A stretch of DNA of 35,217 nucleotides, taken from assembly GCA_019314525.1 (NCBI GenBank), contig JAFCZD010000005.1:1-35217 (forward strand), read 5' to 3'. The position numbers were made by a program, and so were the translations under genes. The notes beneath the pieces are model-generated. The model was not told the DNA's origin, searched no databases, and saw only the letters and a list, made by a program, of their open reading frames with translations. This document shows, in pieces, positions 1 through 17,669 of the stretch; positions within the stretch are counted from its first letter, which is position 1, and each line of letters opens with the position of its first letter. The DNA comes from Deltaproteobacteria bacterium (GTDB taxonomy: Bacteria > Myxococcota_A > Polyangia > GCA-2747355).

Positions 1-3000
1 CCCGTGGCGTTATGCCAGCGGGTGTAGTTTCCGTCGCCTTCGTCGGCGAGGTAGATGCCCGTGGTGGCGACCTTGCCGACCTTGCCAAAGGGAGCTGCCG
101 CTGAGCCGCTGGTGTCGCCCGTGACGAGCACGAAGACATCCTTGCCCGGGGTGGCCGCCGTCGCTGCTACGTAGAGCTGCTGCCCATTGAAGCTGGCGTA
201 GAGCTTGACGCCCTGCTCGTCGATGACCTCATAGGTCGTGTCGTCGACCTTGCCGTCGAGGATATACTTCCGACGTGGAATGCCAGCGGCCGCGTCGCAA
301 CCGTTGACCGCCACGGGCAGACCAAGAACCGTGTCAGTGCAGCTGTCGCAGGCGTCTCCTGCGCCGTCGCCGTCACTGTCGCTCTGATCGTCGTTCTTCG
401 TGCCCACGCAGTTGTCATAGCTGTCGAGGATGCCGTCGGCGTCCGCGTCGGGGATCTGCGTTTGAGCGACCTGGAGGACCTTCGTCTCGTGACCACCCAC
501 ACGGAGCTTGCCACCGGAGAGCAGCTTCGTCTTGGTGATGGCCGTCTGCTCCGTGGGCTTCATATGGTTGATGAGAAAGAGGTTCTCGGGGAAGGCCTTG
601 AGCTTATCTGTGGGCGGGTAGAAGACCACCTCTTTACCCACGGAGGTGGCGTCGTAACGATTGGAGAGCACGATGAAGTGCTGCCCCTCATCGTAACGAG
701 AGAAGGAGTAGATGTCTTTTCCACCGGAGTCGCGGTCTGCGTTAATGCGCACAAAACGGTTGCCCTCGCTACCAAGCCCAGCGGAGTTTTGGCCCTGCAG
801 TCCTGGGTTATTCTTGCGAATGATCAGCAGCTTCTGATAGTGGGCGTGCATCTCTGGGTCATGACTGAAATTCATCGTGCCGCGCTCTTGCTCGGCGGCC
901 TGCTCGTCACCGTAATAGATCATCGGCACACCAGGCAGCATCAACTGCACACCTGCGGTTGCCCGCTGCACGCCCTTATTCAGCCCAGCCTTCAGCAGCA
1001 AACGGTCTTCGTCTTGGTTTCCGATATAGAGCATCTGTAAGACGCGCTCGGGGTCCACCCTCTCCCGCACCATCTTCTCGCCTGCGGAGCTCATCAGGTG
1101 CTCAGATTCACCCCAGGCCTCGTTGACGTCATCGAAGCCCGAACTGCCTACGAAGACATCTTTGAACTTCCAATAGAGCGCGGTGTGGTAGGCGATATCG
1201 AACTGCTCATCAAAGAAGCCCGGCACAGGTTTGAGGATCTCTGCCAGCATCGCGCCGCCGGGGCGCTTGGCGACGACGTGCCGACGCGCCATGCGCCAAA
1301 AAACGGGTGAGATGAAGCTCGCGATGTCGCAGCGGAACGAATCGACGCCACGTTCGAGCCAGAAGTCGATAAAATCCAGAAAGAGCCCATACGATGCGGT
1401 GCTGTTGTAGTTCACTGCGGGCAAGGTTGAAAAATCGAAAGCGTACTCAAAAGGGCGATCCGTGTTGCCGTCGTTGAAAACGAAGAGGTCGCGCAGGGGG
1501 GAGGCGGGGTTGTTGGTCGCCGCTTGGAAGAGCGGGTGACGATCCGAGGTGTGGTTGGCCACCGTATCGAGCATGATCTTCATGCCAAGGCGGTGGGCCT
1601 CAGCAACCATGGCATCCCAGTCCTGCATGGTGCCGTAGTCTGGGTGGGTGGTGTAGAGGGCTGTGGCAGCATAACCATGGGAGGTGGGGCCAGGGGTAAT
1701 GGGCATCAACCAGAGCACGTTGACCCCTAGCTTCTTCAGGTAGGGGAGCTTCTGGGTTAACCCTTTGAGGTCACCTTGGTTGTCGCCATTGGTGTCGAGA
1801 AAGCGCCGAATGAAGATGGTGTAGATGACAGCGTCTTTCTTCCAAAAGCGCGACTGATCGTCGAGCTCCTGGCTCGTGATGCCATCGTTGTTTACACGCA
1901 CCACGAGGGTACGTGCATGGGAGTTGCCCACCTGCAAATAAAAGAAGTACGCGCCCGTTTGGGGCTTAGCGAAGCTGACGGTCTTGCCGTCATTTTCGGG
2001 GGTCAACGTCACCTGCTGGGGGTTTTCCAGGTCTTGAAACCACTTGAAGGTGCCCATGCCGCGGGTATTGCGCCCATCGAGATAGACCTTGCCATCCCTT
2101 AGCGTTGCGTCGGCGCTCGCTCGAATCGTCGCATCGAAGGCGTTGACCACCACGAGCTCCATCTCGCCTTCATCGCTCCACGTGCCCTCATGGTCTTTGA
2201 CCTTGAGGCCAATGCGGTAGGTGCCTGCCGCCGTCGCCGTGGCGCGGGCCGCGCAGGTTTGGCCAGAGAAGGGGATGTGGTTTGCGGCGACGCCGTTGCC
2301 TTCATCGTCAAAGTTCAGCACTCCCAGGTAGTTCTTCTCGGTGCGCTCCTCATCGTAGGATTTGAAGGTTACGTTACCTGGACCGCTGATCTTGCGCCAC
2401 GCAAACTCCGTGAGGCCCACGCGATCGGGGTCTTTCGATGCGCAGCCAGCGAGCTGCACTTCATGCCCTACATAGCCAAAGCGCGTGAACCCGGCCTTGG
2501 CGATGGGCTTGGTGTTTTCGCGATTGACGATGATGTAGGTCGTGAAGGTGTCACCGTCGTTGCCTGCCTGGTCCACCAGATCAAAGTCTACTGCGTGAAA
2601 ACCTTCGGGAGGGTTATCGATGGTGGCCGTGACCCGAGTCCCGCTCACGCTGGTGGCAACCACACGGCTCCTCGGCGCAGGAGGTGCGCCGTTGGGTTTG
2701 TAAAGGGCGGGGGGCTCGGTCTCATGCAAGGTCGCTTTCACGCGCGATGCGTCGAGAGCGCTGCCTGCGTTGCCCAGACGTGCCTCCACGCTGATGGTGA
2801 TGGAAGACCCTGAGGTCGTGAGCGTGCCCGACGCTGGGTTGACGGTTTCGGGGCGGTATTGTGGGCGTTTGGGGTCACGCACAAAATAGAGGTTGTCCTT
2901 GCCAAATTGCCCGCCAAAACCTGGGAAAATCTCCTGGTCGTCGTTGAAGAAGTTGCCGTCGGGCACCTCGTCTGGGTTGAGACCGCAGTCGGAGAGCGTG

Positions 3001-3359
3001 ACATAATCGGCAGCGTTGGAGATGAAGACGTAAATATAGTCGCCTTCAAGGAGGTCGAGGCTCACAGACCACAGGCTGCCATCCCAATTCATTTCGATGG
3101 CGCCCTCACCAGGCCCATCATTGCCACCCGTCTGACAGAGGGGGTTATCCCCGCCAGCGACATCGAGCAAGAGATACGCCTGCTTGATGGTTCCGCTGTA
3201 CGCCACATTATTGACGTCAAAGGCAAAGGTGACGCGCTCGGTGTATTGCGCCTGCGCCGCGAAGGAGCTCAGCAGCACGATACAGGCCGCGAGCATTCCG
3301 GTGAGCCATTGCGCAACCGATCGCGAGAGCGAGGGGTGTTCAGAGAGTGTCCGGCGCAT
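1..3359 (-). CDS. Secreted GH13 alpha-amylase family glycoside hydrolase, C-terminus truncated by window start
   Basis: Minus-strand reading from ATG at 3357-3359: Sec signal peptide (MRRTLSEHPSLSRSVAQWLTGMLAACIVLLSSFAAQA), Ig/PKD-like N-terminal region, GH13 core (GVNVLWLMPI, DTVANHTS, GVDSFRCDIA, AEILKP, YIGNQDEDR), thrombospondin type 3-like Asp-rich repeat (DADADGILDSYDNC...DSDGDGAGDACD), then a C-terminal LDGKVDD... domain. Not in the ORF track because it runs off the window. Confidence 0.9.
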   Translation of the reverse strand, partial: MRRTLSEHPSLSRSVAQWLTGMLAACIVLLSSFAAQAQYTERVTFAFDVNNVAYSGTIKQAYLLLDVAGGDNPLCQTGGNDGPGEGAIEMNWDGSLWSVSLDLLEGDYIYVFISNAADYVTLSDCGLNPDEVPDGNFFNDDQEIFPGFGGQFGKDNLYFVRDPKRPQYRPETVNPASGTLTTSGSSITISVEARLGNAGSALDASRVKATLHETEPPALYKPNGAPPAPRSRVVATSVSGTRVTATIDNPPEGFHAVDFDLVDQAGNDGDTFTTYIIVNRENTKPIAKAGFTRFGYVGHEVQLAGCASKDPDRVGLTEFAWRKISGPGNVTFKSYDEERTEKNYLGVLNFDDEGNGVAANHIPFSGQTCAARATATAAGTYRIGLKVKDHEGTWSDEGEMELVVVNAFDATIRASADATLRDGKVYLDGRNTRGMGTFKWFQDLENPQQVTLTPENDGKTVSFAKPQTGAYFFYLQVGNSHARTLVVRVNNDGITSQELDDQSRFWKKDAVIYTIFIRRFLDTNGDNQGDLKGLTQKLPYLKKLGVNVLWLMPITPGPTSHGYAATALYTTHPDYGTMQDWDAMVAEAHRLGMKIMLDTVANHTSDRHPLFQAATNNPASPLRDLFVFNDGNTDRPFEYAFDFSTLPAVNYNSTASYGLFLDFIDFWLERGVDSFRCDIASFISPVFWRMARRHVVAKRPGGAMLAEILKPVPGFFDEQFDIAYHTALYWKFKDVFVGSSGFDDVNEAWGESEHLMSSAGEKMVRERVDPERVLQMLYIGNQDEDRLLLKAGLNKGVQRATAGVQLMLPGVPMIYYGDEQAAEQERGTMNFSHDPEMHAHYQKLLIIRKNNPGLQGQNSAGLGSEGNRFVRINADRDSGGKDIYSFSRYDEGQHFIVLSNRYDATSVGKEVVFYPPTDKLKAFPENLFLINHMKPTEQTAITKTKLLSGGKLRVGGHETKVLQVAQTQIPDADADGILDSYDNCVGTKNDDQSDSDGDGAGDACDSCTDTVLGLPVAVNGCDAAAGIPRRKYILDGKVDDTTYEVIDEQGVKLYASFNGQQLYVAATAATPGKDVFVLVTGDTSGSAAAPFGKVGKVATTGIYLADEGDGNYTRWHNAT

Positions 3360-5818
3360 TATTTCACCTCGAGATTGGAGATTGAAAGTTCGAGCATCTC
3401 GTCCGCGTCGACGTTGCCATCTTCATTGTTGGCAGCCCCAGCCAGCGCTGGTCCGTAGAGCACGCCTGCGTCGTTGGTGTCCCAGGGGCCCACAACCACC
3501 CAAATACTGGTGGGCATGGTGCCAAAGAGCGTCTCAAGGTTGATCACCGCCTCGAGCACTCCACCATTTTGGGTAGGCGTCGCGACACCCAGTTGCGTGG
3601 TGGACGTGGAGGCATCGGCGAGCATGGTGTCGGGGGTTCCAAACTCGAAGATCCCCGCAAAATCGCTGTCATTTTCGTCGGCGACAAAGATCATCTTGCT
3701 GCTGGTGGGCACCGTCCCGGCTTTGCCCCAGGGCGCTGGACGCGACCCCGTAGGCGCCGTAGCGGACACCAGGAGGAAGTGGTCCGAGCCTTCCCCTGCG
3801 TCGTCGGTGGCGATGTAGAGGATCTTGCCGGAGACCGCCGCGTGGATCTTCATGGTGCTGCTGTTGCCCGCCACCTGCTTGGCTTCGCTGTCCAGCGCGC
3901 CATCGAGGTCGAAGACCACCGGATCTGGCGGATCCACCGTGCCCGAGAGTTCGTAGGAGGGAGGAAAGCTCCCGATGAAGCCAGCGTCATAGTCTGTGTC
4001 ATCGAGGTCAACGGTGACCCCACCGCTGAGCATGTCCTCAGGCGTCCCCGCGATATTGACATCGCGCCAGGTGCCGATCACGTAGACAGGTGTAACCACC
4101 GGCTCGGTGGTTACTTGAGCGATGAAGTCTGGGATCTCCTGCTTGAACATCAAGGCCGCGTTGGGCGTGTTGCTGGGGTCTTGCTGATCGTTGAGGCCAG
4201 CTCCCGTACCCTCATGGATAGTCGCGCTGCTGTAGTTCAACGTGCCCTGGCCCGTGTCTACCTGGCTCAGGTCTCGGGGGTCGATCAGCTTGGGGCTTTT
4301 GCATTCCGTGTCTGTCCAATGGTCCCGCGAAACATCGCAGAGCTCGGTGACGAGGTTTTTCATCACCGTAGGAAAGGCCGTCCCTGAGGAGATGACGGTC
4401 TTATTGAGCAAAGAGCAGCCTGCATCTTTGGGACAGCGCACCACTTTCCAACTGTAGGGGCGGCTTTTGTTGAGGAAGATCGTGCGCTCCCAAACGCCAG
4501 GATGGTCAGAACGCTCGACCATTTGCAGCCCTAAGGTCTCGCCCCCAGAAAAGTCATCGGAGGTGTTATTCCCAAAGGCGTCCTCGGCTGGGCCGAAACC
4601 ACCTGTGAGGAAGACAGCTTCACCGGCGTAGAGGCCCTTTTTGCTGCCTGTGAGGTTGAGCCAGGCGTTCTTCACGTCCACACGGAAGGTCACAGGCACC
4701 TTGTCTACGTTGCCCATGAGGATCTCAACAACTTTGGCGTCGGCGTTAACCACGCCGAACTCCGTGAAGCGACCGGGGTGCTCTTGCCCACCCTCCATGA
4801 GGATCACCGAGTAGGGGAAGGTCGCCGGCTGGTCTCCACCCTCCACGCGGTTGGGATCGATCTTCACCAGCGCCTCACCCTCCCAGACATCGTCGCCATC
4901 GTCGTCCGAGAGCGTGATGGTGGTTGGAGAGTCGATATTGAAGGTACCCTCGGCGTCGAAGCTCGCCACAAGAGAGGGCGCCAAGAGCGCCTGCGCGGGG
5001 CGATCGTCCACGCGGAAGGTCACCCGCACCGTACCGCCGGGGGGCGGTTTTATGCCGAGCCGCAAGAGGTTCACGGTTTGCGCCACAGCCTCTTTCACCT
5101 CGAAGATGGCCAACTCGGAAAGGGGCTGACCTGCAGCGTCAGCCACACGCGCGGTGTAGCCGATATACTCAGGCCCCTTGTTGTCATCGTCCGTGGCGGC
5201 GGTACGCAGGGGATCCACGGCGACGTTGAGCACCGCTTCCCAAATGTGGTCGCCGTCGGCGTCCAGCAGTTGCACCTTGTTCAAGCCTGGGTTGAACGCT
5301 CCCGTTGCGGGGTCGACGGAGAGCAGCAGCGAGGCCTCGGTAACGTCAGCCTTTTCGCTGTCATCGAGCCGGAAGGTCAAGGGCGCCGTCACGGCCGAGC
5401 CACTGCCCGTGAAATTGCGCGTGCCCACCACGGCGTTTCCTGCCGCGTCTTTGACGCCATCGACACGCAAGGTGTAGGTGGTGCCCACGTCTTGAGGGTC
5501 TGTGGTCAAGACCACCGACGAGCTGTCGGCGCTCTTGGCGCTGAGCACCGCGAGCATCTGTGCGGGCTGCACCGCCAGGTCGCCAACCTCATAGTTGGCG
5601 GCCACCTGAGCGCTCTCGGCGTCCACGCGGCAGGCGAAGGTCACCTGCATGCGTGTCGTGTCCAACGCCTTGACGTCGGCGATACCGCGCCCCCGGGGGC
5701 ACACGTCACCATCATCGCCACTCGCGCAGGCGCCCATGGCCAACGCGCTGAAGAGAAGGACACCGAAGGGAAGGAGATAGGGGGCTACCAGTTGACGGGT
5801 TGCTTTAGCTTTGCTCAT
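3359..5818 (-). CDS. Large lipoprotein with Ig-like/Big_5-like and putative carbohydrate-binding modules
   Basis: ORF of 824 aa; likely start MSKAKATRQLV (5818), with ATGA overlap to the upstream gene and TAATG overlap to the amylase. Lipobox-like LFSALAMGAC. Repeated VTFRVD... modules with DGDxxWE motifs. Confidence 0.85.
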   Translation of the reverse strand: MSKAKATRQLVAPYLLPFGVLLFSALAMGACASGDDGDVCPRGRGIADVKALDTTRMQVTFACRVDAESAQVAANYEVGDLAVQPAQMLAVLSAKSADSSSVVLTTDPQDVGTTYTLRVDGVKDAAGNAVVGTRNFTGSGSAVTAPLTFRLDDSEKADVTEASLLLSVDPATGAFNPGLNKVQLLDADGDHIWEAVLNVAVDPLRTAATDDDNKGPEYIGYTARVADAAGQPLSELAIFEVKEAVAQTVNLLRLGIKPPPGGTVRVTFRVDDRPAQALLAPSLVASFDAEGTFNIDSPTTITLSDDDGDDVWEGEALVKIDPNRVEGGDQPATFPYSVILMEGGQEHPGRFTEFGVVNADAKVVEILMGNVDKVPVTFRVDVKNAWLNLTGSKKGLYAGEAVFLTGGFGPAEDAFGNNTSDDFSGGETLGLQMVERSDHPGVWERTIFLNKSRPYSWKVVRCPKDAGCSLLNKTVISSGTAFPTVMKNLVTELCDVSRDHWTDTECKSPKLIDPRDLSQVDTGQGTLNYSSATIHEGTGAGLNDQQDPSNTPNAALMFKQEIPDFIAQVTTEPVVTPVYVIGTWRDVNIAGTPEDMLSGGVTVDLDDTDYDAGFIGSFPPSYELSGTVDPPDPVVFDLDGALDSEAKQVAGNSSTMKIHAAVSGKILYIATDDAGEGSDHFLLVSATAPTGSRPAPWGKAGTVPTSSKMIFVADENDSDFAGIFEFGTPDTMLADASTSTTQLGVATPTQNGGVLEAVINLETLFGTMPTSIWVVVGPWDTNDAGVLYGPALAGAANNEDGNVDADEMLELSISNLEVK

Positions 5819-8800
5819 CACTGCTTCTTCCATGAGACATCGTCTGTGACCCAGACGAAGGGTGGTGCGTCGGTAAACTTCTTATAGGTGATCTCGTCGC
5901 CAAAGAGACAGCGCACCTGCACGAGGCCATCTCCGTCAGGGTCGCCGAGGATGCGCACGGCGTTCTCGTTGCCTGGGTATTCCTGGCCATCGGAATAAAT
6001 CGACGGCCCGAGCTGAGGATCCGCAACGATGGCGAGGGGATCGTCAGATCCCACGCGATGCGAGGCGAAGGTCTTCCATTGCAGGCTCGTTCCGAGGGGC
6101 ACGTCTCTGATCAAGATGGAAAAGACATGGTCGCCTGCGGCGAGGTCTCCGTGTTGGCCATCGTCAGAGAGTTGCGGTTCGATACCATCTAGAGGCTGTC
6201 CTGCAGGGGGGAAACCACCCAATTGGGCCGTCACCGGCTCGCTGATGTCGCTCTTTTGCGTGCCATCCACGGAGACAGTAGCGCCAAGGATGAAGAGCCC
6301 CTCGCGCTTGGCTGCCAACGTCGCAGCGTTGATCGCTCGTGAGGGGATGCGTCCTCCCACTTTTTCGGTGTCGGACACGAGGTAGGAGATTAGCACGTCC
6401 ACCTTGGGGGCCTTGGCAACTGCTACGACCTCGATGCTGTTTTCGCACGCGTTGCCCGACAGGTCGGTGACACCGGAAGGTGTGATGGTATAGCGTTCAC
6501 CCGCGCTCATGGCCGAGGTGGTGAGCACCACCACGTCTTGAGAAAACGTCGTCGAGGTGGAATTGAACGCCGCCGCGCGACGTATGGGTGCAGCCCCGAA
6601 GTCTGCCGTGGTCACGCTAACGCCGCGGATGGCGTAGCTGCCCGCCGCCGCAGCCGTCTCAGGCCAGAGGGGCTCATCGAAGCCCAGGGCCACGCTCGTG
6701 GGCGAGAGCGCCTGGGCAAAGATAACCTTGGGTGTAGAGGTATCGCCAAACCCCTTGAAGGGCACCACCTGCTCGGTGAGCGTATTGGGCGGCGTCGCCG
6801 CGTCCAAGACGTTGCCAACGGTGAGGGTGTAGTCGGCTTCGATGGTCTGCGCCGTGGTGGTCAGCAGCACCTCTGTGCTCCCCGGTTGAAGCTCTGCCGC
6901 TGTCACCTGGGGCGCTGTGCCTTCGCCCGCGATAACATAATTGGCCACGTTGGTGGCTGACGCGCGCTCAACCTCTTCATCGAATTTTACGAGCAAGGAT
7001 GTGGGGCTGCGAGGCTGCGCACCCACGACTGAGGGTGGGCGTGTATCTTCGTCGGGGACCAGCGTGCTTGGGGAAGTGAAGCTCTGAGTCAGCTGGCGAG
7101 ATTGAACATTCTCCGAGACATCGGCGATGGTGTTGTAGCTGAGGGTGTAGGTGCGTGAGAGGGGCATCTCGTCCACCTTGAGCCAAATTTGGTGTGGCAG
7201 CAGCTCGCTGTCGCCGAGTGTGCCGACGCGGTCCACCGAGAGGCCCAAAGGCTCTCCACTGGCCGCGTCGTTGGCGAAGAAGACAAAATCGGAGCTATCA
7301 GCGCCCAAGCGCTCGTCAAAGGTGAGGATCAGCGAATAGGACGAGAAGACGTTGATGTCCACCAAGCGCGGTACCTTGAGGTCGGGGGTCAAGCACGCGG
7401 GGTCGACGTCGCGCACACCGTCATCATAGTCGGTGGTGGTGCCCGCCGCCGTCTTGAATGCCTCGATGTCACGCCATGTGCCCACGACGATGGCTGGACA
7501 GTTGATATCCGTGCTGCGAGACACACAGACCTCGTCGGGGTTTTCCCGTTTGAACATGATGGTGGGAGGACCCGCGTTGCCAAAGGGCCCAGGCTTGTCG
7601 AGCCCTTCGAGGGAGAGGGTCGCAGCAGAGTAGCTGATGCCGCTTTGAGGGGTGCCGTCGGCTCCTGGGATACCGAGGGCCACCAGCGTGATGGGGCTGA
7701 TATCCACCCCTGTGGCGTCATTGGTGCTGCAGAGGCTCTTGTGCACCTTCACCAAGGTGGTGGGTGGATTCTTCCATTCTCCAGGTACGCCATGAGCCAC
7801 TTTCCATGCGTAGGTTCCCGGCGGCGCCAGCACTGTCAGGGTGTAGACGGGTTTGCCCTGGTGTGTTTGTTCACTGGGTTTCATCTCGAAAGCGGGTACG
7901 CCTGTGACGTCCGTGCGCCCCCCGATGGCCATAGAGTTGCCGTCGAGGTCTCGGGCTACCGCGAGCACCGTGCCCGTTAGATAGAGCCCTGAACCAGCGG
8001 GCAGCCCACGTTCGTTGCCTCGAGGATCCAAGAACGCAAAGCCCGGGACCGCGCCAAAGGTCATCTTGAAGAGCGCAAACCCGCTGAACGCGTGGGTGCC
8101 CCCGTGGCTCACCGGGTTGCCCGAGAGGTCGCGAACGCCGCTCAGCTTCAGCTCGTAGGGACGTCGTTTCTTCTGAGGTTCCGTGACCAGCCAAACTTCG
8201 CGCTGATCGCGGACGATGGCCGCCCGCACCTCGAGGGGCAAGCCCAAGCTGGAGACGATGCGATAGTTTGCGCTATTTTCCGCGCTCACAGCATCGAGGA
8301 CCTCGCCGAAGGTCACGACGACGACCTGTCCGATGGTTGGATCATCGCCAGTGCCTGGGTTGAGGTCCCGCAGGGGTGCCGAGCGCACACCCACCACCAC
8401 AGGGGGGGTATAGTCCGGCTTGATGGTCACCTGGCTTCCAGCTGGCAGGGGGTTTCCGTTGGCGCTGGCGTCGAGCAGGTTGGTCACCTCCAACGTGTAG
8501 GTCTTACGAAGATCGGGCGCGCCCACCATCAACGTCACCTGCCGGCCGCTCGCAGCGGCCGTGAGCACAGGTAGCACGTCCCCAGCATCATCAACGATGG
8601 CATAGTTGGCAATTTGGCTCGCGCTGCCGAACTCCATGGCCTCGGAGAATTCAACCTTCACCACGGAGGTGGAGAGGAATTGCGCCGCCATCAACGCTGG
8701 GGGCTCGGCGTCGTCGGTGCTCGCCGTGAGCGGTGCTGGGCAACGATTGCAGATGCCATTTTCGCGAGCCTCTGGGATACCTGCAGGTGTGAGAGGTGCA

Positions 8801-10092
8801 CGCTCGCGGGCGTCGCCGAGGCGCAAGCCACCGGCATAAAAGCCATCTTTGCCCAGGGTGACAGGGCCACCTCCGAGATCGGACTCGAAGGAGAGGTTGC
8901 CCCCGCTCGCCTTAATGTCTTTGTGCAGGTTGACGTGGTTTTTGTTGCTGGCTTCGTCACCAAAGACGTCACGACGAATGATCAGGCAGTCAGGCTGCCC
9001 GCTGAGGCTGAGGGTATCTCGCACCTCGAGGAGGCGCGCGTTGCCTGGCCACTCCTCGGTCCGTGTCCAGCCCTCACCTGCAGATCCATTGGTGTATTTG
9101 TATTTAACGCGCATACCACGAGGCAGCACCAGCACGCGGGTGAAAACGCCATCGCTGGCCACCTCGTCGCCATTGGTGCCATCATCGAACATCTCGCCGT
9201 CGGCGTCGTTGGGCGTCATCTGTGTCTTCAGCAGCCCAGCGGTATCAGCGAGTGGGGAGGTCTCTTCTACAGTGATCGCCAAGTAGACTTTGCCCGACTT
9301 CGGGGCCTGACGAACCAGCTGCGTCACCCCATTGCCGTCGAGGGCGTTACCGCTGACATCAACGGTGAACATCACCTTGATCAACGAGGCGTCACAGACG
9401 ATGGGCACCTCAAGGGTCTCTACGGCGGCTGCCAGGGCTGCCTTGTAGCGCATCACCAGGTCGGAAGGCGTGCCGCTCTCTTTGACAAAAACTTCATCGA
9501 GGCGGGCGTCGAGGGCATGAAAGGTGGGCGTCGCACCTTCGAAGGTGCCAGCCTGGGCCAATTCGACGACGATGTCCTCGAAAGCCGCGATCTCGTCGCT
9601 CCCCGTTGCCAGTTGTGCAGCCAAGCCGCAAAAGACGCTCTCTGGCATAGAAGAAAAGGCGCCGCCCTGACCGGCGATGCGCTCCTGGACGAGCTGGGCG
9701 TGGGCTGTCTGCTTGCTGTCCACTTTGCCCAGGTCGGCCTTGTCTGAGCGGGCAAGGGAGGGCCAGATCGCCTTGAGCACCCGTTGGCCTGCCTCGGCCG
9801 TGAGCCGCAACCCGACGACGTCGCGGTTGGGCGGCAGGGTCAGCTCATTCACGGCGCCTGCGGTGACGCTCTCTTCTAGCAGCAGCTGCTCGTTTTCATC
9901 GTGCAGACGAACGCGCGCGACGGTCCCTGCTGGAAAATCGAGTTCAAAAGAAACTTGGGCGGCAGGGGGAGGGGTTGGATCGAAGCCTGCGCAACCCCAG
10001 CCCACGGCAAGGAGCACCGCCAGGCAGAAGGTTCGGAGGCAGCCGGGAGGAAGGCTAGAGGTGAGGGCGTATGGTGAAGAATATGCTCTCAT
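5818..10092 (-). CDS. Very large lipoprotein with repeated Big_5/SbsA-like Ig domains and CBM-like modules
   Basis: ORF track gives 1464 aa from 10212; better start MRAYSSPYALTSSLPPG at 10092, followed by lipobox-like LLAVGWGCAG. Multiple PPxVxxxxxxSxxxVxVxFxExxxxxSAxNxANYxI repeats. Confidence 0.85.
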   Translation of the reverse strand: MRAYSSPYALTSSLPPGCLRTFCLAVLLAVGWGCAGFDPTPPPAAQVSFELDFPAGTVARVRLHDENEQLLLEESVTAGAVNELTLPPNRDVVGLRLTAEAGQRVLKAIWPSLARSDKADLGKVDSKQTAHAQLVQERIAGQGGAFSSMPESVFCGLAAQLATGSDEIAAFEDIVVELAQAGTFEGATPTFHALDARLDEVFVKESGTPSDLVMRYKAALAAAVETLEVPIVCDASLIKVMFTVDVSGNALDGNGVTQLVRQAPKSGKVYLAITVEETSPLADTAGLLKTQMTPNDADGEMFDDGTNGDEVASDGVFTRVLVLPRGMRVKYKYTNGSAGEGWTRTEEWPGNARLLEVRDTLSLSGQPDCLIIRRDVFGDEASNKNHVNLHKDIKASGGNLSFESDLGGGPVTLGKDGFYAGGLRLGDARERAPLTPAGIPEARENGICNRCPAPLTASTDDAEPPALMAAQFLSTSVVKVEFSEAMEFGSASQIANYAIVDDAGDVLPVLTAAASGRQVTLMVGAPDLRKTYTLEVTNLLDASANGNPLPAGSQVTIKPDYTPPVVVGVRSAPLRDLNPGTGDDPTIGQVVVVTFGEVLDAVSAENSANYRIVSSLGLPLEVRAAIVRDQREVWLVTEPQKKRRPYELKLSGVRDLSGNPVSHGGTHAFSGFALFKMTFGAVPGFAFLDPRGNERGLPAGSGLYLTGTVLAVARDLDGNSMAIGGRTDVTGVPAFEMKPSEQTHQGKPVYTLTVLAPPGTYAWKVAHGVPGEWKNPPTTLVKVHKSLCSTNDATGVDISPITLVALGIPGADGTPQSGISYSAATLSLEGLDKPGPFGNAGPPTIMFKRENPDEVCVSRSTDINCPAIVVGTWRDIEAFKTAAGTTTDYDDGVRDVDPACLTPDLKVPRLVDINVFSSYSLILTFDERLGADSSDFVFFANDAASGEPLGLSVDRVGTLGDSELLPHQIWLKVDEMPLSRTYTLSYNTIADVSENVQSRQLTQSFTSPSTLVPDEDTRPPSVVGAQPRSPTSLLVKFDEEVERASATNVANYVIAGEGTAPQVTAAELQPGSTEVLLTTTAQTIEADYTLTVGNVLDAATPPNTLTEQVVPFKGFGDTSTPKVIFAQALSPTSVALGFDEPLWPETAAAAGSYAIRGVSVTTADFGAAPIRRAAAFNSTSTTFSQDVVVLTTSAMSAGERYTITPSGVTDLSGNACENSIEVVAVAKAPKVDVLISYLVSDTEKVGGRIPSRAINAATLAAKREGLFILGATVSVDGTQKSDISEPVTAQLGGFPPAGQPLDGIEPQLSDDGQHGDLAAGDHVFSILIRDVPLGTSLQWKTFASHRVGSDDPLAIVADPQLGPSIYSDGQEYPGNENAVRILGDPDGDGLVQVRCLFGDEITYKKFTDAPPFVWVTDDVSWKKQ

Positions 10093-10100
10093 CAGGTAAC

Positions 10101-12329
10101 TCAAAAGCTCGTGGCGATGGTGCCAAGGCCGCGCACCACATTCTTGAAAGAATAGCTCGCCACTTCGTCTTTGGAACCCCCGCGTGTGACCTTCACGTCC
10201 TTGTTCAACCACTGCATATTCCAGGCGAGGGTCACCCCGCTGAATTGGTATTTTAGGTCGATGAAGAGGTTCGTCTTGAAGGTGCGATAGTCTGGATAGT
10301 CTGGTCGTCCACCCACCACAGCCCCGGACCGTGCTTTTTCATCCCAATAGTCAAAGCGAAAGCCCCCGCGCACAGAGAACTCATCGTTGAGTTGCGTGGA
10401 GATCTGGGTGCGGGTGAAGATCAGGTGGCCCGCATAGTCATCGCCCTCGACGTCGAGGTCGCGCAGGTCTCGGTCGTAGATGTACTTGACCTTGGTCTCC
10501 CAGAGCAGCCCACGGCCCACGTCGAAGCGGTAGCCGAAGTCGAGCAACGCGATGAGCGTGCGCCGCGCCTGGTTCTGCTTGTAAACCGCGCGAGGATCGC
10601 GACCGCGATCGTTGGTGTTGGCGTAGGAGAAAAAATCCGTGTCCGTCATGCCATCGGGGAAAAGGAAGTCTGGGTAGACGCCGTAGTAGTTGCCGGCCTT
10701 GTCTTGTGGGCAGACGTTTGACGCGATGGGCACACCGTTCTGATCGGTGATATTGGTGCCCGTGCAGCGATCCTGAGCGTCGGTGTTGTATTCGAGGAAG
10801 GTGAACTCTCCCTGCACCTCTAGCGCGCCTCGGGTGAGTTTGGGCGAGATCGTCGCGCCATGCCAACCCACGATGGACTCATAGAACTTGTCGTTCCAGT
10901 CGATGAACTCGTTGGCGATATTGAGCGTGGGCACCTGTCCGTCGACGAAACCATCGGTGAGCAGGACGTCCGTCTCTCGACGCGCGCCAAAGTTGGCGAC
11001 CCAATCGGCGCTGATATTGAAATACTCCACACGGATGTCGAGGCCGATACCGAAGGGATCCGCGAGGTCGGTGCGGGCCTTGAGGGCGTAACCGTGGGCC
11101 CGCTTCATGGGAATGGGTGAGATGCCTTGGTTTCCATCGACGCTGTTGAAGACGTAGTCCAGATCTGGGTCCGAAAAGGAGTAGGCAAGGAGCAGGTTGC
11201 TATCGACGAAGCTCTTGTTGAACTGCATCTCAAGGGTGCTATTGACGTTCTGGTAGCGGGGCAGGGTAGCCACCCGACCGTCCTTCTTGTCGATGAAGTT
11301 CGTCGATCCGAGGGAGTCGGGATCGTTGAGGTCAGCCTCTTCGTCGAGCAAATAGGTTGCAATGGCCGTCCAACTCAAAGAGTCCAAGGGGCGCTGCGAG
11401 AGCTTGAGCGCATAGGCGGCGTCCCGCGTCCAGAAGGGGTTTTGCACGAGAGGGTCGTCGATGCCCGTGTTGTAGCCCGCTGAAGCGAAGAGCTTGGGCA
11501 GCGCGATGCGCGCGAAATGGTAATCGATGGTGCCCCAAGGGATGGTGCCGTCGAGGAAGAGGCCATTGGCGTTGTCACGGTCGATATAACGCACCTTGCC
11601 GATGGTCCACGCGTTGTACATGGCCAGGTCACTCGAGCCAGCGTGAAAGGTCTTCACGGTGGGGATCGGGGGCCGCATGCGTACGTAGAGCCCACGCAAC
11701 TGAATATACGCGGAGTGGTTCATGCCCAGGCTCTCGCCCGTGCCATCGGCGCCCCGCGGAAGGCCCGCCGCGTCTACAGAGAGGTCGCCATTTTCATAAA
11801 ACTCGGCCCATTGCCGATGGAAGCGGCTCTTGATGCGCGCGCCCACCTCCACCCGGTCGGAGACCCGTCCATCGAGATAGAGGGTAAGCTCAGAAGCAAA
11901 ACCGTTGTTACCGGTGAAGTTATCGCCTCGTGGGTGTGGTGTGCCGTAGCTGATGGACCCCTGACTCTGGTCGTTTTGGTAAAGGATCTTCGTGTAGGTC
12001 TCTGCGCGCCAGGAAAGCCGTGGCTTCTTGACGGGCGCCGGAGGGCCTCCCTTGGGCATGGACCTGCGAATTTGCTTCTCCCAGGCCTGCAGAAACTTCT
12101 TCTGTGCCGCGTTGAAGGGAGCCTTGGAGAGGTCGACGCTGGGCGTGTCATCGTCGTCATCTTCCTCTTCCTCGTCATCCACCTCTTCTTCATTTGCAGG
12201 CGTGACGTCCTTGGCGCTCGAGGGCTTGGATGCAGGTTTGGTGGCGCTTGGTTTTGGTTCTGGCTGAGCGATGGCGAAAGACGGTGTTAAAAACAGGAGG
12301 AAGAGGAAAATGGAAAGCAGCCGAGGCAT
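10101..12329 (-). CDS. Outer-membrane beta-barrel protein (putative glucan porin-like component)
   Basis: 742 aa, signal peptide MPRLLSIFLFLLFLTPSFAIA, Asp/Glu-rich stretch (EEEVDDEEEEDDDDD), alternating beta-strand pattern, C-terminal Phe (...GTIATSF) typical of a barrel-assembly signal. AGGAG ribosome-binding site upstream of ATG. Confidence 0.75.
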   Translation of the reverse strand: MPRLLSIFLFLLFLTPSFAIAQPEPKPSATKPASKPSSAKDVTPANEEEVDDEEEEDDDDDTPSVDLSKAPFNAAQKKFLQAWEKQIRRSMPKGGPPAPVKKPRLSWRAETYTKILYQNDQSQGSISYGTPHPRGDNFTGNNGFASELTLYLDGRVSDRVEVGARIKSRFHRQWAEFYENGDLSVDAAGLPRGADGTGESLGMNHSAYIQLRGLYVRMRPPIPTVKTFHAGSSDLAMYNAWTIGKVRYIDRDNANGLFLDGTIPWGTIDYHFARIALPKLFASAGYNTGIDDPLVQNPFWTRDAAYALKLSQRPLDSLSWTAIATYLLDEEADLNDPDSLGSTNFIDKKDGRVATLPRYQNVNSTLEMQFNKSFVDSNLLLAYSFSDPDLDYVFNSVDGNQGISPIPMKRAHGYALKARTDLADPFGIGLDIRVEYFNISADWVANFGARRETDVLLTDGFVDGQVPTLNIANEFIDWNDKFYESIVGWHGATISPKLTRGALEVQGEFTFLEYNTDAQDRCTGTNITDQNGVPIASNVCPQDKAGNYYGVYPDFLFPDGMTDTDFFSYANTNDRGRDPRAVYKQNQARRTLIALLDFGYRFDVGRGLLWETKVKYIYDRDLRDLDVEGDDYAGHLIFTRTQISTQLNDEFSVRGGFRFDYWDEKARSGAVVGGRPDYPDYRTFKTNLFIDLKYQFSGVTLAWNMQWLNKDVKVTRGGSKDEVASYSFKNVVRGLGTIATSF

Positions 12330-12524: not shown

Positions 12525-13937
12525 CTAGAAGTCCTCGCCAGGCTCGTCTTCCCCCTCGACTCCATCGTAGCGACGGAGCTTCTTCCAGAGGGTCGTCCGG
12601 TTGATGCCAAGGATCTCGGCGGCCTTGCTCTTCTGGCCGCCACAAGCACGCAACACCACCTCGATATGGTGCCGCTCGAGGTCCTCGAGGCTCCTGCCCT
12701 CGAAGGGGTAGGGACTCTCCGCACATCGCGAGGCGGGCGCCGGGATACCTTCAGCGTGGGGCGCCACTGAGATCTCGTCTGAGAGGTCTGCACTATCGAT
12801 CACCCCCCCGGAGGAGAGAATCACCGCACGCTCGATCACGTTCTGTAACTCGCGCACATTGCCAGGCCAAGGGCGCTGCTGCAGGTATCCGAGGCCTGCC
12901 TCCGTGATGCCCTCCACCGGTTGACGCACTTTCAACGCTGCTTCACGCACAAAGCGCTCTGCGAGCAGGGGAATATCTTCAGGTCGATCCCTCAGCGGCG
13001 GGATCTCGATGCTGATCACGTTTAGGCGGTAGAAGAGATCCTCACGGAAGGTCTTTTGCTGCACCTCTTGGCGTAGATCTCGGTTCGTCGCCGCCACCAC
13101 GCGTACGTCTACCTTCTTCGTCTCCACCGCCCCAACAGCTTTGACCTCTCCCTCTTGGAGCAGCCGTAAGAGCTTGGGCTGCATATCGAGAGCCAGCTCA
13201 CCCACCTCGTCGAGAAAGAGGGTCCCGCGGGCCGCGGCTGTTACCAACCCAGCCTTGGCCACGTGAGCGCCGGTAAAAGAGCCTTTGGCGTGCCCGAAGA
13301 GCTCGCTCTCCAAGAGCGTGCCCACCATGGCGCCGCAGTTAATGGGCACGAAGGGGCGCGCGGCTCTATCGCTGTGCACATGGATCGCCCGCGCCACGAG
13401 CTCTTTGCCGGTGCCGCTCTCCCCGCTGATCAAGATTGTGGTGTTGGTCCGGGCCACCTTGCGGATCATCGCGCTGAGGGCGCGCATCTTCGCTGAACCA
13501 CCCAAGATCGCATCGACGCCGCTCTTTGCGCGCAGCTCACGCCGGAAGACCTCGTTTTCATCTTGGAGCGCCCGCTCTTTGAGCGCACGGCCCACCACGA
13601 TCCGCATTTCGTCAGGGGTGAAGGGCTTGGTGATGTAATCACGAGCGCCCTGCTTCATGCCCTCAATAGCTGTCTCCAACGAGGGGTAGCCGGTAACGAG
13701 GATTACCACCTGTTCTGGCTGCTCTTCCCGCATGCGTTTGCAGAGCTCGAGGCCATCCATCTCGGGCATCTTGATATCCGAGAGCACCACATCGAATTCG
13801 CTCTCTGCGAAGCGAACCAAGGCCTCGGATGCCGAGGCGGCCACGACCACTTCGTGACCCGCTCGACGCAAGATATCCGAGGAGAGCGTCCTCACCCCAC
13901 GCTCATCATCAACCACCAGTATTCGTGCTTGCACCAT
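12525..13937 (-). CDS. NtrC-family sigma-54-dependent response regulator (REC-AAA+-Fis HTH)
   Basis: Likely ATG start MVQARILVVDDERGVRT (13937; the ORF-track start at 13979 is TTG). Receiver domain (VVLSDIKMPEMDG), AAA+ Walker A GESGTGKE, GSFTGA loop, C-terminal Fis-type helix-turn-helix (KAAEILGINRTTLWKKL). Confidence 0.95.
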   Translation of the reverse strand: MVQARILVVDDERGVRTLSSDILRRAGHEVVVAASASEALVRFAESEFDVVLSDIKMPEMDGLELCKRMREEQPEQVVILVTGYPSLETAIEGMKQGARDYITKPFTPDEMRIVVGRALKERALQDENEVFRRELRAKSGVDAILGGSAKMRALSAMIRKVARTNTTILISGESGTGKELVARAIHVHSDRAARPFVPINCGAMVGTLLESELFGHAKGSFTGAHVAKAGLVTAAARGTLFLDEVGELALDMQPKLLRLLQEGEVKAVGAVETKKVDVRVVAATNRDLRQEVQQKTFREDLFYRLNVISIEIPPLRDRPEDIPLLAERFVREAALKVRQPVEGITEAGLGYLQQRPWPGNVRELQNVIERAVILSSGGVIDSADLSDEISVAPHAEGIPAPASRCAESPYPFEGRSLEDLERHHIEVVLRACGGQKSKAAEILGINRTTLWKKLRRYDGVEGEDEPGEDF

Positions 13938-13980
13938 GATCCTCACGATCGACCTTAGGCCGTCTCCAATATGCGCCAAC

Positions 13981-16200
13981 TCAACGGCCGTTGGCTACCT
14001 CCTCGAAGGAAGGCAAGATGACGCGAAATGTCGCGCCGGACCCTTGGGTACTCTCGACCTCGATCTTGCCCCCATGATCGCTGACGATCCCATGACTCAC
14101 CGAAAGACCCAAGCCTGTACCAGCCCCTGGAGCCTTTGTCGTGAAAAAGGGATCGAAGATCCTGTCGATATTTTTCCCCCGGATACCCGGCCCGTCATCA
14201 GAAAACTCGACATAGACCTGCGCTGGCGCCACATCATCCAGGGTGCCGCTGCGCAGGGTGAGCGTACCACCATCTGTCATCGCGTGCCCTGCGTTGGTGA
14301 GCAGGTTGACGAAGACCTGCTCAAGCCGACGCCCATCCACCAGCACCAGGGGAAGATCTGCGCTGAGCTCTTCCACCACCTTCACCCGCCGCTTTCGCAG
14401 ATCGGGTCCCACGAGCGCCAAGGTGTGACGTATTAAATCAGCGAGGGGTTGAGGTCGCTTTTCACCGGACTCCTGGCGAGAGAAGTCCAGCAGGTTGCGC
14501 ACGATCATCTGTACGCGCTGCGCCTCTTCTGCGACCAACTCGAGAGCAGCCCTATCGGGCGAGTCGGCGTCTACCCCTTCGAGGAGCAGCTTGGCGTAGC
14601 CAAGGATCGTCGTCAGCGGGTTGTTGATCTCATGGGCCACACCCGCCGCCAAGACGCCAACGCTCGAAAGCTTCTCCGAGCGCAAGAGCTGTTGCTGCAG
14701 GCGAGCGCTCTCGGAGAGATCCTCCTGGAGGATCACCGCGCCATCCACCTCGCCGCTGCGGCTGCGTAGGGGAGTGATACGAACTCGGTAACGCAAGGGC
14801 TTGCGCGCGGAAAAGGGCGTGCGTTGTCCCTTGGTCAGGTTGAGATCCACCTCACCACCCACATCCAGCACACGCTCCAATCGCTCCAAAACCCCGGCTT
14901 CGTCGCGTTCGGCTGGAAAGACCTCATCGAGCAACTGCCCCACAGCGTCGGCCGCCACCACCTCGCTGAGCTGCTCCTGGGCGGGGTTCAGCGTCAGGAT
15001 GCGCCCATCCTTGTCGATGGAGATCACACCAATGGGCAGGCTGCGCACCAGGTTTTCGCGGAACTCCGTAAGGGCGTACATGCACTCGCGGTCGTCCCGC
15101 AACTCAGACACCATCACAGCGAAGCTCTCGGCGAGTTGCCCGATCTCGTCCCGTTCGCGCACCTTATCAAAGGCGATGTCGAGGTTCCCCGCGGCGACCT
15201 GTCGTGTCTGGCGTACCAGGCGGGAGAGTGGGCGCGTCAAGCGTCGGGCGCTGAAGGCTCCCACCCCGAGGGCTAGGACCAACATTCCGATGACCACCGC
15301 CAGGGTATTTCGGGCCGTGCGGCTGGCCAAGGCGTAGGCGTCGCGGGTGGGCTGGTGCAGGATCACCCCCCAGCGCACCGCGCGGAACTCGCTCATGCCA
15401 GCGATATTGCGATAAACCGAGAGCCAACGGCGCCCTTGGTCGTCATCCCACTCGAGGTGCCCCGCTTCGTGGCTGGCGAGGAGGCGATCGATGACAGGGT
15501 CGCGCCGCCGCTGCTGCCCACCACTGCCCACCTTCGGACCTTCACCGCGCGCGGCCACTCGCCGGCCCGATCCATCGACCACCAGGAGGCCCGCGTTATT
15601 GCCCAAGCGAGGTTCGGCAAGGCGCTGGCGCACGAAGGTCAGGTCCACCACGCCAGCAACGAAACCAAAGAGAGCGCCACGACGATCGCGGGCCTGCACC
15701 ACCATCAGCACACGCCGCTTACCGTCTGCGCCAAAGAGCACATCGCTGACATAACCTCCGTAAGTATTGGCCTGTTCGCGCTCGAAACCCGTACCCGCGT
15801 CCAAAGCATCCCCGGCTACACGTTTGCCACGTGCATCAAGCGCAGTAGCCGTGTCGAGGAGGGGGAATTCGGCACGAAGACGGCGCAGCAGGCGAGCCAA
15901 CGCACGTTTCTCCGTATCACCCTCGGACGCGACGTCGCGCAAACCACCCCAACCGCTCGCGGTCACCGCGAGGGCCCGTCGCGTGTCCTGCAGCCGTGTA
16001 TTGAGTTCATGACCAATGGAGCGAATCAGCGCCAGATGGCCTCGGGTGACCTCGTCCTGCACGTTGCCGCGCGCGCTGTGGATAGCGATCCAACCCAACA
16101 GGAGGGTAGGTGTGAGCGCCATCAAGGCGAGGAGGATCACCAGCCGGGAGCGCAACCCGGCCCGAACCCGAGGGGGCAGCGCCACCTTTTCTTCGGTCAT
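13981..16200 (-). CDS. Membrane sensor histidine kinase (extracytoplasmic Cache-like domain, HAMP, PAS, HisKA, HATPase)
   Basis: Start MTEEKVALPPRV at 16200 overlapping the upstream stop (ATGA). Two transmembrane segments, HAMP, PAS (VRSLPIGVISIDKDGRILTLNPA), H-box AHEINNPLTTILG, N/G boxes (VFVNLLTNAGHAM, FSDDGPGI, GTGLGLSVSHGIV). Confidence 0.95.
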   Translation of the reverse strand: MTEEKVALPPRVRAGLRSRLVILLALMALTPTLLLGWIAIHSARGNVQDEVTRGHLALIRSIGHELNTRLQDTRRALAVTASGWGGLRDVASEGDTEKRALARLLRRLRAEFPLLDTATALDARGKRVAGDALDAGTGFEREQANTYGGYVSDVLFGADGKRRVLMVVQARDRRGALFGFVAGVVDLTFVRQRLAEPRLGNNAGLLVVDGSGRRVAARGEGPKVGSGGQQRRRDPVIDRLLASHEAGHLEWDDDQGRRWLSVYRNIAGMSEFRAVRWGVILHQPTRDAYALASRTARNTLAVVIGMLVLALGVGAFSARRLTRPLSRLVRQTRQVAAGNLDIAFDKVRERDEIGQLAESFAVMVSELRDDRECMYALTEFRENLVRSLPIGVISIDKDGRILTLNPAQEQLSEVVAADAVGQLLDEVFPAERDEAGVLERLERVLDVGGEVDLNLTKGQRTPFSARKPLRYRVRITPLRSRSGEVDGAVILQEDLSESARLQQQLLRSEKLSSVGVLAAGVAHEINNPLTTILGYAKLLLEGVDADSPDRAALELVAEEAQRVQMIVRNLLDFSRQESGEKRPQPLADLIRHTLALVGPDLRKRRVKVVEELSADLPLVLVDGRRLEQVFVNLLTNAGHAMTDGGTLTLRSGTLDDVAPAQVYVEFSDDGPGIRGKNIDRIFDPFFTTKAPGAGTGLGLSVSHGIVSDHGGKIEVESTQGSGATFRVILPSFEEVANGR

Positions 16201-17669
16201 GGTGCCAGACCCGACTTGCCGGGCTGTGATGCAGCTGGAGATCCAGCCGGTGCGGTGGCTGGTGCGGTCGCCGGTGTTGTGGGTGGGCCCAGGAGTCGTC
16301 GCCACGCCTTCGCCACTGCCGCGAGGGCCTCTTTGGGCTGCGCGTCCCCAAGGAGCACCGCTTGCACTGCGGGAGTAAAATCGTCGAAAATACGTGCCAT
16401 GATCGGATGAGCGGGACGCGCGCGGGCACCCTTCAAAGCGGCGCGAAAGGCTCCGATCAGGGGCAGGCGCTTCACCCTGGCACGATCATAAACTTCAGCG
16501 ATGGCAGGAAGAAGCCCCGCACGCTCGGCGAAGACCATTTGAGCATCTCCATCGGCGAGAGCCATGGCCAGCTTCCAGGCCAGAGCAGGGTCTTTGGCGC
16601 AGCGTGAGACGACGAAGCCGTGGCCGCTCATGGGCGCCGTGGGTCGCCCTGAGGGCCCCATGGGCAAAGGAGCGACGCCGAGGTGTCGATGCTCACGGAA
16701 AGCAGGCTGCTTGAGGATCGCCCGCGCAGCCCAGGGCCCGTTGACCATCATCGCCAGCTCGCCGCGACCAAAGCGTTGCAGCTGATCTTCATAGTCGTTG
16801 GAGAGCCGCAGGTGGGGCGGGGCGATGTGATGGGTGCGCGCCAAGTCACGGTAGAAGCTCAGCGCCTGCACCGCGCGCGCCTTATCAATAAAGATCTCGC
16901 CGGAGTCAGGGTCTAAGAGCTGACCCCCATGGGCCCACAAGAAGGGGAGAAACCAATATCCATCCGCGCGCACATAAAAACCCCACCGGATCGCCTGTGA
17001 GACGACGAAGGCAGGCGAACTCGACGGCTTCCCGGCTCGGTCCGTCGTGAGTCGCTGACCCACGCTAATGAGCTGCTTCAGCGTCTGCGGTGGCTTCTTT
17101 AAGAGGGCTTTGTTGTAGAGCAGCGCCAGGCCATCCACGCTGGTCGGTACGAGGTAGGTCTTTCCGCGGTAGCGCCCAACATCGGCGGCCTCTGCGAGAT
17201 AATCGCCTCGTGGCACGACCTTGCCCTTGGCAGGGCGCAAGAAGCCGCGCTCGACGAAGCCAGCCAACCACGGCAACTCAGCACGAAAGACATCAGGCGC
17301 GTTTGGCGCACAACCTGTCACAGCCCGGCGGAAAGCGTTCTGCGCCTGAGAAAAGGGGATCACCGTCGCGCGAACGCGGACATCGGGGTAACGCTCTTGC
17401 ACACGAGCAATCACGTCATTGAGCGCCTCGGTCTCATGGGGGTTGAAGGTGTGCCAGAGCCGCACCTCTTGGCCTGGTGGTTTCGTGGATGTGTGGTCGC
17501 GGCACGCAGACAAGGCTCCCAAACCAAAGAGAAGGAAGCTCGTCAACCATGGCGACGCAAGTCTTTGCGTGCAAAATCTCACGTCCGGCAACTTGCCGCA
17601 CCCGCCTGCAACTGGCAACTGTGAACATTTGTTCGCAGTTGGCCGTGAAGAAGAGTGCACGCCAAACAT
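16197..17669 (-). CDS. Extracellular solute-binding lipoprotein, maltose/maltodextrin-type; start uncertain (17669 ATG or 17582 GTG)
   Basis: Lipobox-like FGLGALSAC; VRLWHTFNPHETEALNDVIARVQERYPDVRV and DVFRAELPWLAGFVERGFL are typical of sugar-binding proteins. The GTG at 17582 gives a conventional signal peptide (VRFCTQRLASPWLTSFLLFGLGALSAC). Confidence 0.85.
   Translation of the reverse strand: MFGVHSSSRPTANKCSQLPVAGGCGKLPDVRFCTQRLASPWLTSFLLFGLGALSACRDHTSTKPPGQEVRLWHTFNPHETEALNDVIARVQERYPDVRVRATVIPFSQAQNAFRRAVTGCAPNAPDVFRAELPWLAGFVERGFLRPAKGKVVPRGDYLAEAADVGRYRGKTYLVPTSVDGLALLYNKALLKKPPQTLKQLISVGQRLTTDRAGKPSSSPAFVVSQAIRWGFYVRADGYWFLPFLWAHGGQLLDPDSGEIFIDKARAVQALSFYRDLARTHHIAPPHLRLSNDYEDQLQRFGRGELAMMVNGPWAARAILKQPAFREHRHLGVAPLPMGPSGRPTAPMSGHGFVVSRCAKDPALAWKLAMALADGDAQMVFAERAGLLPAIAEVYDRARVKRLPLIGAFRAALKGARARPAHPIMARIFDDFTPAVQAVLLGDAQPKEALAAVAKAWRRLLGPPTTPATAPATAPAGSPAASQPGKSGLAP
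17586..17641. promoter_or_regulatory. Dyad-rich putative operator region upstream of the solute-binding protein operon
   Basis: Palindrome CGGCAA-C-TTGCCG (17586-17598), direct repeats GCAACTG-GCAACTG (17608-17621), and 26-bp near-perfect palindrome CAACTGTGAACATTTGTTCGCAGTTG (17616-17641, one mismatched pair). Confidence 0.5.

Follow-up and report, generated by a model that had tools for sequence, protein, structure and literature searches.

A CBM9/DOMON-like module shared by a secreted GH13 amylase and its neighbouring lipoprotein in a predicted surface alpha-glucan locus of uncultured Polyangia

The window analysed here, a whole contig of 35,217 bases, carries at its beginning two adjacent minus-strand genes, one for a secreted alpha-amylase-family protein and one for a lipoprotein, which raises the question whether both proteins end in a common module and what such a module would do at the cell surface. 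The initial annotation had proposed that the two C-termini align over about 80 residues, resemble a CBM9/DOMON-like beta-sandwich and may bind glycans or the cell surface. Pairwise BLASTP confirmed the common module, as the C-termini are homologous with 50.1 bits, E=1e-13, 36% identity and 60% positives over 85 aa. The segments first noted lie at 27-263 in the amylase and at about 3665-3907 in the lipoprotein, both on the minus strand; the alignment of about 80 residues is thus real, but the module itself extends over about 175 aa, as is evident from the complete copies on the lipoprotein and on amylase homologues. Since the contig ends at base 1 within the amylase gene, only the first approximately 95 residues of its module are visible (3-302, minus strand), the remainder lying past the contig end, while the lipoprotein copy is complete (3374-3919, minus strand), as supported by profile, alignment and an AlphaFold2 model of 3368-3949. 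Complete amylase copies are present in two relatives, the genome G003 and the locus L040. A profile of seven sequences matches the two window copies at E=1.7e-82 and 1.5e-38, values inflated by the presence of both copies in the profile, and these are the only convincing copies in the 7.57-Mb window assembly, the next matches having E=0.6 and 2.6.

Searches and the Pfam scan were based on an alignment of seven members, whereas the structure model and the tree rest on 29 aligned members. Among these 29, one column is Trp or Phe in every sequence and another is Trp in 26, the two corresponding to residues 74 and 100 of the modelled 3368-3949 segment; residue 100 is Ile in the lipoprotein copy of the window. 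The lipoprotein module is closed by an EF-hand-like loop (ANNEDGNVDADE; 3398-3433, minus strand), recognised by its sequence pattern, which may bind calcium; the pattern recurs in 24 of the 29 modules, with the incomplete window amylase among the five lacking it.

No Pfam family covers the module, as none of the seven members gave a match above noise, and the lipoprotein copy had no match in NCBIfam. A sequence search of the PDB with the larger profile likewise yielded no match. Pfam CBM9_1 (PF06452) matched none of the seven members at E<=1; that this model works is indicated by its matches in 34 of 39 related genomes. The AlphaFold2 model of 3368-3949 is confident and all-beta (pLDDT 92, pTM 0.88), and the Foldseek comparison of the lipoprotein module ranked Thermotoga CBM9 (1i82) first in the PDB at probability 1.00 with a borderline TM of 0.48, followed by the CBM9 7nwo (probability 0.92) and dopamine beta-hydroxylase 4zel (probability 0.51). 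Since no PDB match reached E<=0.001, the resemblance is one at fold level. In line with this, hhalign of the module profile against 14 CBM9_1 domains from related genomes gave a score of 28.2 (E=0.0012, probability 19.8), which exceeds the best of 60 column shuffles (17.0) and a reversed control (12.6). Conserved aromatic columns exist, and the profile alignment to CBM9 is unreliable around the sugar-clamp region. Taken as a statement on fold, the proposed CBM9/DOMON-like beta-sandwich is therefore supported by the model and by this weak profile match, but membership in the CBM9 family is not supported, given the missing CBM9_1 match and the low hhalign probability.

To learn where else the module occurs, 84,980 species genomes were scanned with two peptide patterns taken from the alignment, a query that biases the scan to close relatives. 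Of the resulting 24 named loci, all except L046 come, by record title, from Planctomycetota, Verrucomicrobiota, Kiritimatiellota, Ignavibacteriota, Sumerlaeota, Eisenbacteria and Myxococcota. By reading and Pfam, the hosts comprise 18 GH57 proteins (including L036, which is incomplete but clearly of the same type), two GH13 proteins (L040, L041) and four stand-alone, short Kofleriaceae-type lipoproteins with an Asp/Ala-rich linker. Directly N-terminal to the module, most GH57 hosts show a CBM25 or CBM53 match; several of these matches fall short of the curated cut-off. Occurrence is rare, with the module in 6 of 379 Myxococcota genomes and in 3 of 246 sampled genomes of the planctomycete phylum, usually as a single copy per genome. 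A search of the literature (PMC) returned no paper joining three of GH57, Planctomycetes, PEP-CTERM and CBM25.

Because the module sits on GH57 or GH13 glycosidases in 20 of the 24 loci, glycan binding is plausible from the sequences, and since its relatives are mostly found on starch- or glycogen-type enzymes, it probably helps cells to hold starch-like polymers at their surface during digestion. This makes it a candidate new starch-binding family. For binding to the cell envelope, the other role suggested initially, no evidence was found; anchoring is better explained by the putative lipobox of the lipoprotein and the MYXO-CTERM-like tail of amylase homologues described below.

A rather unlikely explanation is that the module has no ligand and acts as a structural, sorting-associated spacer of the choice-of-anchor type, positioning enzymes before the surface anchor of the respective lineage. 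Such a role would fit its frequent position just N-terminal to a surface-sorting signal or tail, be it a Por_Secre_tail (L044-L046), dockerin-like repeats (L030, L035, L048), PEP-CTERM-like tails read by eye in some hosts or MYXO-CTERM-like tails, or after a lipoprotein linker, and it would fit the occurrence of the module alone as a lipoprotein. Yet the stand-alone lipoproteins are already anchored N-terminally, so that a bare spacer would be of little use there; moreover, all 20 enzyme hosts are GH57 or GH13 proteins rather than mixed enzymes, and the two aromatic columns are conserved.

We consider it improbable that the module binds something other than alpha-glucan, namely another polysaccharide, a glycan of the cell's own envelope or matrix, or another module in an amylase-lipoprotein docking. 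Known CBM9 modules bind beta-linked glucan and xylan oligosaccharides (PMC8280721), and homotypic docking would be in keeping with an operon in which two proteins each bear a copy. In addition, reading by eye revealed no recognised starch or glycan gene in the neighbourhoods of the stand-alone lipoproteins L026 and L029, which lie beside probable radical-SAM genes; this makes it less certain that the module always binds starch. Against these ligands stand the starch-binding-module matches of most host enzymes and, with regard to docking, the single module of most genomes, in which a partner would usually be absent. The genes next to the two lipoproteins, all read by eye in Kofleriaceae-type genomes, are a probable radical-SAM/SPASM gene (CNNNCIFCMEE) directly upstream (L029, 8613-9671; L026, 8685-9776; plus strand) and a PilZ-like gene downstream.

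The amylase gene (3-3359, minus strand), with its 3' end cut by the contig end, encodes an N-terminal signal peptide and a catalytic domain at 855-1817 (minus strand; aa 515-835 by Pfam). Its assignment to GH13 follows from PF00128 (E=7.6e-51) and the presence of the conserved regions: the motifs DTVANH, DSFRCD, MLAE and GNQDED are intact and the catalytic Asp, Glu and Asp are in place. Its best PDB relatives are GH13 enzymes. Region IV reads NQDEDR (about 1005-1022, minus strand; aa 780-785), with Gln for the usual His of NHD; the homologues have TQD (G003) and NQD (L040). The module is preceded by a thrombospondin-type-3-like, Asp-rich linker (DADADGILDSYDNC...SDSDGDGAGDAC; 324-449, minus strand).

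In the homologues from G003 and L040 the protein ends in TSP3-type repeats, which in L040 account for the TSP_3 Pfam match after its module, followed by a Cys motif, a hydrophobic stretch and an Arg cluster. This architecture resembles the MYXO-CTERM tail, which in Myxococcus targets proteins for display at the surface by myxosortase (PMC11980579), although the model TIGR03901 scores the two tails at 19.5 and 17.2 bits, just below its curated cut-off of 20, and the window amylase's own end lies off the contig. In G003 (L013, 7943-12733, minus strand) the amylase frame continues without a stop past this tail into what appears to be the lipoprotein signal of the next gene, either a fusion or an assembly error.

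The module-bearing lipoprotein (3359-5818, minus strand) starts with MSKAKATRQ... and carries LAMGAC as a putative lipobox, and the stop codon of its gene overlaps the start of the amylase gene (TAATG). Upstream of it lies ORF3 (5818-10092, minus strand; start MRAYSSP...), a large putative lipoprotein in which Big_5 Ig-like domains and choice-of-anchor X segments were recognised, together with a weak match to pullulanase X25. A second region, spanning about 200 columns, is common to both proteins (hhalign Prob 98.2, E=3e-14) and located at 3962-4696 in the lipoprotein (PVTFRVDV...GEAVFLTG...VGTWRDV) and at 7399-8067 in ORF3, both on the minus strand. Outside the module the AlphaFold2 model of the lipoprotein has a mean pLDDT of 60.8 and is too weak beyond the first approximately 360 residues for firm domain calls. 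Matches of this low-confidence model at probability 1.00 extend over about 230 columns and fall on two-domain segments of CGTases and of 1qho, an amylase of five domains; they suggest folds of the starch-binding type.

Further upstream, ORF4 (10101-12329, minus strand) encodes a secreted protein of 742 aa that, judged from its signal peptide and a barrel-like sequence, is a probable outer-membrane beta-barrel. It had no Pfam match at E<=1, while its G003 homologue (69% identity) has a sub-threshold match to OMP_b-brl_3 (E=0.0095). The gene junctions (TAATG, TGATG and a gap of 8 bp between ORF4 and ORF3) suggest that ORF4, ORF3, the lipoprotein and the amylase form one operon. The long plus-strand frames opposite to it (462-1040, 2190-2813, 4778-5887 and others) are expected by chance at about 60% GC. 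Next follow genes for an NtrC-type response regulator (12525-13979), a histidine kinase with HAMP, PAS and weak Cache matches (13981-16305) and a MalE-like sugar ABC-transporter binding protein (16197-17669; PF01547, E=4e-34; sub-threshold in the MalE model NF007011 with E=1.8e-21), all on the minus strand and the first two assigned by Pfam.

Conservation of the locus was examined in related genomes. G003, from the same order, keeps the order histidine kinase, NtrC-type regulator, barrel, ORF3, lipoprotein and amylase with both module copies, and carries two additional genes between the barrel gene and ORF3, one for a second GH13 protein and one for a small lipoprotein. The inserted genes (L110; 900-1382 and 1375-4233, minus strand) encode, for the GH13 protein, a TSP3 match and a dockerin-like tail and, by eye, a small cohesin-like lipoprotein; a cohesin/dockerin pairing suggested on this basis was discarded, as Pfam gives no support. 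In G413 (locus L040) the order ORF3, lipoprotein and amylase is kept and the ORF4 homologue lies on a separate contig. There the module is found on the amylase only, the lipoprotein ending where it would start, from which it follows that the pairing is dispensable. An ORF4 homologue is present in each of the three genomes that have the operon, but not in G001, a member of the window's own family that is without lipoprotein and barrel.

The occurrence of both modules in one operon and the G413 arrangement would fit a recent duplication of the amylase module into the lipoprotein, without a separate history of the latter. Such an origin is not favoured by the sequences and appears quite improbable, since the lipoprotein module is 42-47% identical to those of the G003 lipoprotein and of the stand-alone Kofleriaceae proteins, but only about 31% identical to the copy on its own amylase. 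In the best tree, too, a single starred group unites the three amylase copies, with the lipoprotein copies grouping away from it, although AU tests rejected neither the union of lipoprotein and amylase copies (p=0.099) nor that of lipoprotein copies with the Kofleriaceae stand-alone modules (p=0.145). Chance resemblance of the two C-termini is ruled out by the E-values and the spread of the family.

Taken together, we slightly favour the reading that the window ends in a locus for the capture and digestion of alpha-glucan (starch or glycogen) at the cell surface. The amylase would be exported, with a MYXO-CTERM-like tail, judged from its homologues, probably retaining it on the outer surface. 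The two lipoproteins with their strings of beta-sandwich domains would hold the polymer beside the enzyme, aided by the CBM9/DOMON-like module that the amylase and one of the lipoproteins have in common. Products would probably pass the outer membrane via the ORF4 barrel and then be imported by maltodextrin-type ABC transport, with the adjacent two-component system controlling the locus. The alpha-glucan reading is supported by transport genes, namely the MalE-like one of the window and those for MalK-like, MalE-like and permease proteins elsewhere in the window genome (contig G000:C700), and by the CGTase and 1qho matches of the lipoprotein model. It is weakened by the neighbourhoods of L026 and L029, by the G413 lipoprotein lacking the module, by the borderline TM to CBM9 and by the low pLDDT of the N-terminal part of the lipoprotein. 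More tentative is the wider proposal that the module founds a new alpha-glucan-specific carbohydrate-binding family, spread across phyla on GH57 proteins, GH13 proteins and lipoproteins, and that the locus serves uncultured Polyangia for starch uptake at the surface independently of SusC and SusD.

Compared with CBM9 (PF06452; Thermotoga Xyn10A CBM9-2, 1i82) and the DOMON superfamily, its best structural match, the module shares N-terminal DGxLD and LY[LV]A motifs in the same order and an accessory position on secreted glycosidases. It differs in its Pfam and hhalign results, in its hosts, which are GH57 and GH13 proteins instead of xylanases, and in its EF-hand-like tail. Furthermore, CBM9 clamps the sugar with two aromatic residues (PMC8280721), whose counterparts in the module are not assignable with confidence. 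Glucodextran_C (PF09985), the C-terminal module of glucodextranase, is similarly an accessory module tied to alpha-glucan enzymes, but represents a separate Pfam family that matches none of the seven members. Among 59 relatives this family was found only in the window genome and G003, the two genomes with the paired module; in the former, a secreted stand-alone Glucodextran_C protein (L104, 1390-2238) is followed on G000:C700 by the MalK-like, MalE-like and permease genes (L112, 2241-6353, plus strand).

To our knowledge, few studies have characterised extracellular GH57-family proteins or the use of starch by myxobacteria. Binding assays could readily be applied to a module that is rare, has no name and accompanies starch-type enzymes in several phyla, and a conserved locus lacking SusD would represent a further means by which Gram-negative bacteria retain and break down starch on their surface. 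With the Sus system of Bacteroidota (SusE, SusF, SusG) the locus shares the predicted combination of surface amylase, surface lipoproteins and outer-membrane protein in one regulated locus, and SusG is among the GH13 relatives of the amylase. It differs in that SusD (PF07980) is absent from the window genome (assembly 84% complete) and that no SusC is recognisable, since ORF4 has no Pfam match. The best reading by analogy is that the locus would work like Sus, but without SusD.
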